From: Qipengyuania xiapuensis
Lineage (GTDB): Bacteria; Pseudomonadota; Alphaproteobacteria; Sphingomonadales; Sphingomonadaceae
Reading direction: 5' to 3'
DNA length: 64,000 nt
Assembly: GCF_019711395.1 (NCBI RefSeq)
Contig: NZ_JAIGNL010000001.1
Coordinates: 1,426,001 to 1,490,000, forward strand
Below, piece by piece: positions 15,517 through 19,735 of this stretch. The notes beneath the pieces are model-generated. The model did no database searches, was not told the DNA's origin, and worked only from the letters and a program-made list of their open reading frames with translations. How positions within the stretch are numbered: the first letter of the stretch is position 1; each line of letters starts with the position of its first letter. The translations under genes were made by a program, and so were the position numbers.

Positions 15517-16607
15517 TGGTACTTTCCCGCGGGGACGAATATCCGATCCACCAGACGCCCGAGCCGGTCGCATATTCCGGGACCGACCGGAATTTCTACG
15601 ACCGCTATTTTTTCAATGGCTATGCGCCCGACGGGAGCGGCTTCTTTGCCTGCGCCTTCGGCATCTATCCGCACCTCGATGTGGCGGACGCGCATTTCAG
15701 TTTCATCCGGGGCGGGGTGCAGTACTGCCTGCATGCAAGCGCCGAGATGGGAATGGAGCGGATGGCGATGCGCGTCGGGCCGATCTCGATCGAGATCGTG
15801 GAACCGCTGCACGCACTGAAAGTCACGATAGACGAGACCGACGGGATCGCCGGCGAGTTTACCTTCACGGGCCGCGCATTCCCGATCGAAGAGCCGCGCT
15901 TTACGCACAGGATTGGGCCGCGCGCTTTCATGGACTACACGCGAATGACGCAGAACGGGCACTACGAGGGCTGGATCTCCCTCGATGGCGAGCGTCACGA
16001 TATGGCGGAAGGCACCGCCGGTACGCGCGATCGCAGCTGGGGGATCAGGCCGGTGGGCGCGCGCGACATGCAGCCGATGCCCGATGCGCCGGTGCCTGCA
16101 TTCTTCTGGCAATGGACCCCGATCGGTTTTGCGAACGGCAGCCTTTTCTTCCATGTGAACAACGACCCGAGCGGGAAGGCATGGAATACCCGTGCTGCCT
16201 GGGCTGGCGACGGCGCGGATGCTCGCGACATTGCCGAAGGGCATGGCAGCATGCGCACGCGGCTCTTGCCGGGCACGCGATGGCCTGCCGGTGGGACCTT
16301 GTCGCTAGCGGTGAAAGGCGCGCCCGAGCAGGTCACTTTCGAACCGCTGGGTCGCTTCCAGATGCGCGGGATCGGCTACACGCATCCCGAGTGGAACCAT
16401 GGCTTGCATCACGGCAAGCTCCGCGTCGAGCGCGAGGACATCGAACTCGACGCGATCGATCCGCTCGCGCCCGAGAACCTGCACGTACAAACGCTCGTGC
16501 GTGTCAACGGAAACGACGGCAGCGAAGGGCTGGGGGTGTTCGAACAGCTCATCATGGGGCCGTTCGCACCGCTTGGTCTGACCGGGATGGTGGACGGAGC
16601 GGACTAG
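15516..16607 (+). CDS. Uncharacterised protein with CrtC/AttH-like features
   Basis: A 363-aa protein with no signal peptide, starting [18 protein letters not shown] behind a strong AAGGAGG at 15502-15508. It is rich in aromatic and Gly residues in alternating strands, with [11 protein letters not shown] and a C-terminal [11 protein letters not shown]. This resembles the two-lobed lipocalin-like CrtC/AttH fold (hydroxyneurosporene synthase, tocopherol-cyclase-like), where the DRSWG motif is typical. Function is unknown. Translational coupling to the phosphotransferase suggests a shared small-molecule substrate, possibly a hydrophobic one; that is inference. Confidence 0.65.
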
Positions 16608-17026
16608 ACCCCGAAACGGCCCTGCAGGTCGAGCAGCGCCATGGCGGCCTTGGCAGCCTCGCCACCCTTGTCCTTCTTGGTCGGATCCGCGCGTACGATA
16701 GCCTGTTCTTCGTTCTCGGTCGTGATGATGCCGTTGCCGATGGCGATACCGTCCATCGTCAGTGCCATGATCCCGCGTGCGCTTTCGCCCGCCACGATCT
16801 CGAAGTGATAGGTTTCGCCGCGGATCACCACGCCGATGGCTACGAAACCGTCATAGCGGCCACTCTCGGCGGCCATGGCGATTGCGCCCGGAACTTCGAG
16901 CGCGCCGGGGACGGTGAGGACCTCGACCGAGTGGCCTTCGGCCTCGAGTGCTGCCTTGGCACCGGCAACCAGCATGTCGTTCAAGTGGTCGTAGAAACGC
17001 GCTTCGACGATCAGGAAATTGGCCAT
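16604..17026 (-). CDS. ribH: 6,7-dimethyl-8-ribityllumazine synthase
   Basis: Condenses the ribityl-uracil intermediate with 3,4-dihydroxy-2-butanone 4-phosphate, the penultimate riboflavin step. A 140-aa protein from the ATG at 17026 ([16 protein letters not shown]), preceded by GGAG; a GTG at 17035 overlapping the ribB stop would add three residues. The active-site segments [27 protein letters not shown] and [12 protein letters not shown] are intact. It lies directly downstream of the ribB-type gene, forming a two-gene riboflavin operon, and ends tail-to-tail with the rightward pair (4-nt overlap at 16604-16607). Confidence 0.95.
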
Positions 17027-17031
17027 CTGGT

Positions 17032-18270
17032 TCACTCCGGAATGGGTTTGTGGTCGACGATATTGAGGCCGTAGCCTTCGATAGCAACGACATTGGGCTG
17101 GGAATTGCTGAGCAGGATCATGTCCTCGACACCAAGATCGGCGAGGATTTGCGAGCCGATACCGACATTACGCTGGGCCTCGTTCTCGCCATAGCCTGTC
17201 GCGGGACGTCCGGTGATAATGACGATAACGCCCGAACCATGCTCGCCCACGGCTTCCATGGCACGCTGTAGGGTGCGCTTGCGCGGGCCGGGCTTGCCGA
17301 GAACGTCGTCGAAGATAGAGATAGGATGGACGCGGGTGAGGGTGGGCTCGCCTTCCCTCACTTCGCCCTTCTGGAGGACATAGCTCTCGCTGCCGTCGAC
17401 CGTGTTGCGGTAGGTCAGCATCTGCCACGCGCCACCATAGTCGGAGGTGAAGCTGTCCTCTGCGATGCGTTCGACCAGGTGGTCATGGCGCATTCGATAT
17501 TCGATCAGGTCGCGGATCGTGCCGATCTTCATGTCGTGCTTGCGCGCGAAGGTGACGAGATCGTCGAGGCGGGCCATCGTCCCGTCGTCTTTCATGATCT
17601 CGCAGATCACGCCCGAGGGATTGAGGCCAGCGAGGCGCGAGATATCGACCGCAGCTTCCGTATGGCCAGCGCGCACGAGCACGCCGCCGTCGCGGGCAGT
17701 CAGGGGGAAGACATGGCCGGGGGTGACGATATCCTCAGGACCCTTGGTCGGATCGATTGCGACCGAGACCGTGCGCGAGCGGTCTGCTGCGCTGATGCCG
17801 GTGGTGACGCCGGTCTTCGCCTCGATCGAGGTGGTGAAGGCTGTCTGCATGCTTTCGCGATTGTCGCGGCTCATCGGTTCGAGGCCGAGAGCTTTCACAC
17901 GCTTGGTGTCGAGCGAGAGGCAGATGAGGCCACGGCCATGCGTCGCCATGAAGTTGATTGCGTTCGGCGTGGCCATCTGTGCGGGAATGACGAGGTCGCC
18001 CTCGTTCTCGCGATCCTCGTCATCGACCAGGATGAACATCCGGCCGTTGCGCGCCTCGTCGATGATTTCCTCGGCGCCGACGATGACCGGGGTCTCGTCA
18101 TTGGCTTCGAGAAAGGCTTCGAGCTTGCCCAGCGTTTCGGCGGTGGGGTTCCAGCCATCTTCGGCGCAGTCGCGCAAGGTATTGGCGTGGAGGCCGGCTG
18201 CGCGGGCGAGCCCGGCGCGGGTCATCAGACCGGTGCCGACGATGGTGCGGACTTTTTCGATCGTATCCAT
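17032..18270 (-). CDS. ribB: 3,4-dihydroxy-2-butanone-4-phosphate synthase with N-terminal HTH and degenerate RibA domain (RibBX type)
   Basis: Makes DHBP from ribulose 5-phosphate for riboflavin. A 412-aa protein from the ATG at 18270. Residues about 12-55 form a Cro/C1-like helix-turn-helix ([15 protein letters not shown], then [14 protein letters not shown]). The RibB domain follows, with the acidic loop [12 protein letters not shown] and [16 protein letters not shown]. The C-terminal GTP-cyclohydrolase-II-like domain starts at [13 protein letters not shown] but lacks all three zinc cysteines (the usual SECLTGDVFGS...RCDC), so it should be inactive for GTP. RibB fused to a Cys-less RibA-like domain is the proteobacterial RibBX variant; the HTH addition is the unusual part. 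Two palindromes precede the gene. Confidence 0.9.
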
Positions 18271-18283
18271 ACCCACAGCCGGT

Positions 18284-18333
18284 ATCACATCATAATGTGA
18301 TGCGCAAACGAACATCACATTCAATGTGCATCA
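18284..18333 (-). promoter_or_regulatory. Paired palindromic operator and candidate promoter of the HTH-RibBX gene
   Basis: Palindrome 1 is ATCACAT (18284-18290), 4 nt, ATGTGAT (18295-18301). Palindrome 2 is ATCACAT (18314-18320), 3 nt, ATGTG (18324-18328). The centres are about 30 bp apart, close to three helical turns. A TATGAT -10-like hexamer (minus strand, 18294-18289) sits inside palindrome 1, so binding would block the promoter. No FMN riboswitch signature is present in the short leader. Confidence 0.6.
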
Positions 18334-18386: not shown

Positions 18387-18462
<76 letters not shown>

Positions 18463-19010: not shown

Positions 19011-19024
19011 TTTTGGATCAACAA

Positions 19025-19735
19025 ATGCAGGAATTCGTAGCAGAACTCGAACGACTCGATGATTGTGAGAAAATCCTCACATACGTAATTTCGTTCGGCT
19101 CTGATCACGGTATCTTGGCATTTAGTTACCATTACTTTCCGATTTTCGGATCACCCATTGCGCGAGGAGCGTTCGTCCATGCCGAAGGTTTCCCGCGCGA
19201 GTGGGAGAAAGCCTACGTCAGCGAGGGTCTGATCAGGAAGGATCCGGTACCTCGACTGACCTTCGACAATCCACCGGTGCTCTTCTGGGACGAAGCGATC
19301 GCGCTCTCGAAAAACGACCCCGAAGCCATGCGGTACTTCGCCAGGATGCGGTCGTTCGGAATGGGCAATGGCGCGAGCTTCGCGCTTTACGGACCACGTT
19401 CGCGAAACGGCTACGCTACGATGATTTTCGACAAGCCGCCGCAAGAATTGCCGGAGGGGCTGGTCAGCCTCATGAACAGCATGGTGCAGGCCGCTCATGT
19501 CCGGATTTGCCAGATTACCTCCGAAGACGAGGCAAGTGTCGAACTGTCCCACCGCGAGCGAGAGGTCCTGGGCTGGATGGCCGGTGGCAAGAGCGCGAGC
19601 GAGATCGCGGGAATATTGAAGATCTCGCCCGATACTGTGCGCACCTACATCAGACGGCTCTACGAGAAGCTGGACGTGACGGACCGCGTTGCGGCGACGG
19701 TGAAGGGGCTCAGGCTGGGCCTCATCACGATCTGA
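19025..19735 (+). CDS. Autoinducer-binding LuxR family transcriptional regulator (solo)
   Basis: A 236-aa quorum-sensing-type regulator; a TTG at 19013 would add four residues. The N-terminal autoinducer domain keeps the residues that contact acyl-homoserine lactone in TraR/LasR: W and Y in REWEKAYVSEG, D in RKDPV, W in VLFWDEA and the G of GNGASFALYG. The C-terminal GerE domain (ELSHREREVLGWMAGGKSAS, EIAGILKISPDTVRTYIRRL) binds DNA. No luxI synthase is in the window, so it is a solo or its partner is distant. The 5' part is visibly more AT-rich than its neighbours. Confidence 0.9.
   Translation: MQEFVAELERLDDCEKILTYVISFGSDHGILAFSYHYFPIFGSPIARGAFVHAEGFPREWEKAYVSEGLIRKDPVPRLTFDNPPVLFWDEAIALSKNDPEAMRYFARMRSFGMGNGASFALYGPRSRNGYATMIFDKPPQELPEGLVSLMNSMVQAAHVRICQITSEDEASVELSHREREVLGWMAGGKSASEIAGILKISPDTVRTYIRRLYEKLDVTDRVAATVKGLRLGLITI

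Follow-up and report, generated by a model that had tools for sequence, protein, structure and literature searches.

An enzyme that may repress its own gene: a phage Cro-like DNA-binding domain and its candidate operator at ribBX in Sphingomonadaceae

FMN riboswitches (RF00050) are a common form of feedback control over bacterial rib genes, and a search of the window, by which we mean the whole 64-kb stretch of DNA analysed here, found none, in line with the initial annotation, which had noted the absence of such an element at ribBX. The product of this gene carries an N-terminal helix-turn-helix (HTH) ahead of its enzyme domains, and the question taken up here is how ribBX is controlled. Our analysis makes it highly likely that RibBX would serve as an enzyme-repressor whose HTH binds a palindrome at its own promoter and represses ribBX-ribH, the module itself most likely being phage-derived.

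The open reading frame and the Pfam matches agreed with the domain order read previously, namely an HTH, a DHBP synthase and a RibA-like domain lacking its cysteines (Table 1). The synthase domain was intact, with the RENEGD, PGH and TE motifs, which have a catalytic role in DHBP synthase, invariant across 33 proteins. The Pfam GTP_cyclohydro2 match in the window RibBX was split into two pieces, and the RibX domain kept the GTP cyclohydrolase fold without the zinc motif. When aligned with the RibA of the same genome, RibX lacked the SEC...CxC zinc motif in all 141 family loci whose RibBX has the HTH, and the motif was also missing from 37 of the 38 HTH-less family loci. The window genome encodes a separate RibA (PF00925, 201.7 bits at C1:389030) that contains the Cys motif and looks functional from its sequence features; its ORF (G000:C1:388439-389611; L311:4440-5612) has a long N-terminal extension ahead of the GTP cyclohydrolase II domain. 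Downstream, ribH is presumed to share one transcript with ribBX. Beyond the tRNA gene on the other side, a plus-strand ORF at 19013-19735 resembles, by reading only, a LuxR-type regulator with an autoinducer-binding-like N-terminus and a GerE-like C-terminus.

Table 1. Features of the ribBX locus, in window coordinates.
Feature	Position	Strand	Remarks
ribH (lumazine synthase)	16604..17026	-	ORF overlaps ribBX end; start ATG 17026 chosen by reading
HTH-ribBX coding sequence	17032..18270	-	Start ATG 18270, 412 aa, stop included in span
RibX domain, GTP cyclohydrolase II-like, residues 268-412	17035..17469	-	Zinc Cys motif missing, ~24 residues deleted
DHBP synthase domain, residues 67-258	17497..18072	-	PF00926, E 5.6e-84
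Cro/C1-type HTH domain, about residues 3-63	18082..18264	-	HTH profile A1, E 6.6e-31 at G000:C1:1444082-1444264, not an independent value because the profile includes the window sequence itself
Presumed recognition helix LHANTLRDC, residues 27-35	18166..18192	-	Placed by analogy with HTH_3
Putative operator O1, ATCACAT-N4-ATGTGAT	18284..18301		Perfect 7-4-7 inverted repeat, 13 nt upstream of ATG
Putative -35-like hexamer TTGCGC	18302..18307	-	Directly before O1; weak family preference
Probable second, imperfect operator O2, ATCACAT-TCA-ATGTGC	18314..18329		3-nt gap; CACAT-to-CACAT 30 bp from O1
tRNA gene upstream of ribBX	18390..18462	-	Rfam RF00005, 72.1 bits

Two palindromes about 30 bp apart had been described upstream of the gene, and both were confirmed, O1 as a perfect and O2 as an imperfect repeat; O1 would sit over RibBX's own promoter. 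In the 2.71-Mb genome O1 was the sole exact match, and the two next-best sites differed at 2 positions each. Since the one match found within the 64-kb window at up to 3 mismatches equals the chance expectation, the significance of O1 comes from its exactness and from its relatives rather than from the window-level count. The TATGAT hexamer within O1, to which the initial annotation had also drawn attention, was not conserved in relatives; the central bases of the aligned sites vary, and we rejected TATGAT as a conserved -10 element.

Pfam matched the window HTH weakly and under the cut-off (HTH_31, E 0.079; HTH_3, E 0.11), while 14 of 21 aligned family HTHs matched HTH_31 and 14 matched HTH_3, with a best E of about 1e-4. 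The predicted fold was lambda-repressor-like (AF2 mean pLDDT 86.6 for the domain alone), and searching PDB sequences with the profile of the HTH returned no meaningful match. Six residues, G26, L27, H28, N30, L32 and R33 in window numbering (G24, L25, H26, N28, L30 and R31 in the alignment), were invariant among the 21 aligned HTHs.

Co-occurrence of the palindrome with the HTH had been put forward by the initial annotation as a test of its model, and the family sample passed it. Among 199 genomes, 193 had a ribB match, from 176 of which we took 179 ribB loci, leaving 17 of the 193 genomes out of the locus set. The HTH was present in 141 loci and absent from 38, with nothing intermediate. CACAT-N4-ATGTG, allowing up to 2 mismatches within 250 nt upstream, was found in 141/141 HTH loci (91 exact, 41 with one mismatch and 9 with two) versus 0/38 HTH-less loci, compared with about 11/141 and about 2.5/38, respectively, in shuffled upstreams. 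The 4-nt gap was specific, as exact matches with this gap occurred in the 91 loci versus at most 3 loci for any other gap of 0-11 nt. Fisher's test of HTH against palindrome gave 9e-40 with kinship ignored. On the RibB tree, from which L256 (203 residues) was left out, 8 changes are required to account for the HTH, of which 3 fall on supported branches; palindrome and HTH went together in 3/3 independent pairs on supported branches (sign test p 0.25), and the independent evolutionary contrasts behind the association are few.

Genomic neighbourhood was compared where ribE lies directly upstream: the palindrome was present in 30/30 HTH loci of this kind versus 0/20 HTH-less ones, the latter count following from the 0/38 overall. 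One genome, G114, carries both kinds of ribB, the HTH copy having an exact site and the HTH-less copy none better than 4 mismatches. An exact site was likewise found in 11/11 HTH loci of a named-genome set, which is not independent of the 179-locus set because the two overlap (L034/G105 and L043/G073). Its 68 HTH-less ribB genes included 5 with a 2-mismatch match, about the shuffle rate, and none with a better one; one short upstream, L086, was left out.

The best sites of the 141 HTH loci gave the consensus aTCACATTnYRATGTGATA, in which the half-site cores ACA and TGT were invariant and the outer C and G reached 96%. Flanking positions were near background, save for a weak signal resembling TTGnCA that immediately precedes the site, with a slight -35-like preference at -6 to -4 (T46 T62 G38). 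The distance from site to start codon was 10-13 nt in 92/141 loci; for paired sites whose upstream member gave the best score, it was mostly 36-44 nt. In 24/141 loci, versus 0-4 in 13 control blocks, another strong site lay 29-33 nt upstream; the second palindrome reported earlier stands at the window locus and is shared by only some of the HTH loci. Because Shine-Dalgarno-like strings (AGGA, GGAG or GAGG) were found in only 20/141 HTH loci, ribBX transcription may be leaderless; the open-access papers searched yielded nothing on leaderless sphingomonad promoters.

Scanning whole genomes, we found 43 near-perfect ATCACAY-N4-RTGTGAT sites in 38 HTH genomes, 30 at ribBX and 13 elsewhere, and the 17 perfect sites, compared by hand, were all at ribBX. 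No site reached the near-perfect threshold in 6 of the 38 genomes, and in G103 and G039 the near-perfect site lay only away from ribBX. The G039 site (G039:C22:11954-11971) lies past the end of ribH, ahead of a convergent gene, and the G103 site (G103:C1:2869928-2869945) is about 1.5 kb downstream of ribBX. These two of the 13 other sites were examined without finding a clear target, and a wider regulon was rejected given that 30/43 sites are at ribBX. None of the sites found in 24 HTH-less genomes falls at ribB.

By these searches, most of Sphingomonadaceae appears to have the HTH-operator system. Searching 385 genomes of the class with the HTH profile revealed no RibBX-sized ORF with the HTH outside the family, and 4/5 family members in the same sample matched. 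Under strict filters an FMN riboswitch was present in 1/199 family genomes, G164, and not in the window genome (G000); it precedes an operon of a different kind, ribD-ribE-ribBA-ribH, whose RibA domain looks intact (L308:6051-9564; G164:C1:1158050-1161563). The two other sampled members of that genus, G008 and G102, have HTH-RibBX. Control of ribBX by an FMN riboswitch or another known RNA element was rejected for the window, and the strictly filtered search did not find the riboswitch in 198/199 family genomes. For HTH-less members such as Sphingomonas jeddahensis, S. lenta and S. leidyi, the search found neither operator nor riboswitch.

A relationship to phage Cro proteins, absent from the initial annotation, was added by the present analysis: its sequence places the RibBX HTH in one family with small Cro-like proteins of phages. 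Genome G017, in which both ribB copies are HTH-less, encodes a stand-alone Cro-like HTH up to 57% identical to RibBX HTHs. This gene lies within a prophage (L307:5245-15121; G017:C1:213244-223120; also an IMG/VR contig) together with a divergently oriented CI-like repressor that has an S24 peptidase domain, a YqaJ exonuclease and a primase. The interval between CI and the Cro-like gene contains a pair of ATCACAT operators spaced by 31 bp, of which the closer one ends 12 nt ahead of the Cro-like ATG, and a second ATCACAT pair with the same 31-bp spacing is found 2.8 kb away. The prophage operator ATCACATTAGGATGTGAT is identical in its letters to the RibBX operator.

A scan of viral_contigs for nothing but the paired operator returned 4 contigs, and 3 encode a Cro from the RibBX-HTH family. 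The independent yield is small, because one of the 3 is again the G017 prophage, and L377 and L378 are closely related to each other; in L377 and L378, Cro begins 12 nt after the operator. The fourth contig, L379 (2724-2801), has three ATCACAT/TTCACAT-type palindromes 30 bp apart and no HTH relative in the stretch examined. Among 52 viral contigs with a single perfect site, an HTH relative was found in L417 only, where the ATG of the relative follows the site by 10 nt and TTGACC directly precedes the site. Starting from the proteins instead, profile searches of viral_contigs turned up further small relatives of the HTH. A 7-4-7 palindrome with at most 1 mismatch lay within 50 nt upstream of 7/20 stand-alone phage relatives, versus 0.96 expected from shuffles, and the other 13/20 had no near-perfect palindrome upstream. 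AGCATAT-type sites were common to five of these relatives, L347, L351, L353, L369 and L370, at -42 or near, the place at which RibBX carries ATCACAT, and the L353 site matches with 2 mismatches.

Half-site and helix did not follow a simple recognition code, which L417 and L377/L378 ruled out: the ATCACAT half-site occurs with the helix GLSVNALR in L417 and KLHPNSLY in L377/L378. In L370, GLHRNTLY goes with GGCATAT/ATATGCT half-sites. INPHARED phages gave no match with the window HTH and one weak match when a phage relative was the query, and a plasmid search for the HTH returned two Novosphingobium replicons, one with an annotated ribB. In an HTH tree of 58 columns, phage rows interleaved among RibBX rows with 2 label changes, 19 of 79 inner branches being well supported.

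In the mechanism we propose, the N-terminal Cro-type HTH, dimerised via the RibB domain (RibB is a dimer), would bind the 18-bp ATCACAY-N4-RTGTGAT palindrome in its own promoter, so that abundant RibBX would hide the promoter and block ribBX-ribH transcription. The core of this model, repression of ribB-ribH by the enzyme bound at the palindromes, had been suggested by the initial annotation. The second site, 31-32 bp upstream in part of the family, would probably be occupied by another dimer. The HTH, the very short leader, the operator and the promoter would constitute one module in common with temperate-phage cro genes; in the likeliest history, an ancestor of most Sphingomonadaceae acquired it from a phage and it became fused to RibBX. 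We infer binding, repression as opposed to activation, dimerisation and the phage-to-host direction; a flavin or nucleotide signal via RibX, also part of the model in the initial annotation, is possible.

Another, stand-alone regulator could instead bind the palindrome while the RibBX HTH is unrelated or binds elsewhere, as the HTH is tied to the site by co-occurrence, with its few contrasts, and by phage analogy, and 13 of the 43 near-perfect sites in HTH genomes are away from ribBX. We consider this very unlikely, since the palindrome is absent from every HTH-less family locus, including the 20 with a ribE neighbour, the operator recurs, equally spaced from the start codon, in front of phage genes for related HTHs, and perfect sites in the 38 genomes occur solely at ribBX. 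It is harder still to credit that the HTH is a structural or dimerisation relic beside a palindrome kept for another reason, such as promoter shape: such a reading can point to an HTH-operator link drawn from sequence, but recognition-helix residues are invariant in 21 diverse HTHs, and an 18-bp palindrome with an invariant half-site core persists in 141 loci between flanks near background.

Simple repression would also be replaced if RibBX activated or fine-tuned its promoter in response to a flavin, nucleotide or sugar-phosphate ligand instead of acting by simple concentration, which we regard as possible if somewhat unlikely. The retained cyclohydrolase fold of the zinc-less RibX favours such tuning, as does the Shewanella X domain, which according to parts of PMC10012899 affects RibB activity by an unknown mechanism. 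RibX, however, is degenerate in HTH-less relatives too and therefore need not serve the HTH, and an operator beside a -35-like signal suits a repressor. As for origin, phages could have taken the HTH and operator from ribBX, a direction that the interleaved HTH tree would allow; it appears rather unlikely, because both sequence and operator vary more among the phage members and no RibBX-sized HTH ORF was detected outside the family in the 385 class genomes.

Autorepression by RibBX would have counterparts among metabolic enzymes acting as repressors of their own pathway genes, such as BirA, PutA and NadR, whose folds and pathways are unrelated. The archaeal HTH-enzyme that the initial annotation had cited as precedent under the misnomer RibR-type is RbkR, a riboflavin kinase with an HTH as described in passages of PMC8305020, whereas RibR, according to parts of PMC12542839, is a Bacillus subtilis flavokinase acting on rib leader RNA. 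Like RbkR, RibBX would be a riboflavin-pathway enzyme doubling as a gene regulator through an N-terminal HTH, but it is another enzyme in another domain of life. We know of no phage Cro module for RbkR. With the small phage Cro/C1-type repressors beside CI-S24 genes, RibBX shares the HTH family, paired palindromic operators and a similar operator-to-start spacing (10-12 nt in phages), although its HTH is fused to a 350-residue housekeeping enzyme and stands over a vitamin gene. Other Proteobacteria, among them A. baumannii, Shewanella, Aeromonas and Bradyrhizobium, also have RibBX. The A. baumannii protein (6mnz) has no N-terminal HTH, the alignment starting at residue 64, and the HTH-less relatives that were tested in this analysis had no operator. 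We found no description of an HTH-fused RibB in the open-access literature searched, subscription journals being mostly outside that search.

If correct, the model would answer how vitamin B2 synthesis is controlled in most of a large family almost without FMN riboswitches, the enzyme itself being the repressor, and would explain simply why sphingomonad RibB proteins are extended at the N-terminus. A housekeeping enzyme would have taken up a cro module of temperate phages together with its operator, and riboflavin-producing Novosphingobium would gain a target for the relief of feedback. The model predicts one operator per genome, autorepression and possible cross-talk with phages. Because the operator letters are identical to those of some temperate phages, RibBX could repress the early promoters of incoming phages and so confer superinfection immunity on its host; in the opposite direction, host riboflavin synthesis could be switched off by the Cro or CI of a prophage. 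We hold this idea to be a long shot. Among ATCACAT-type prophages, the host was searched for one, that of G017, an HTH-less host, and the Cro-like genes L369 (G021:C1:305350-305505) and L370 (G036:C1:2969131-2969274), with their AGCATAT-type operators, are in hosts that carry HTH-RibBX. In these three cases, which are the only ones, the pairing of operator and host fits immunity.
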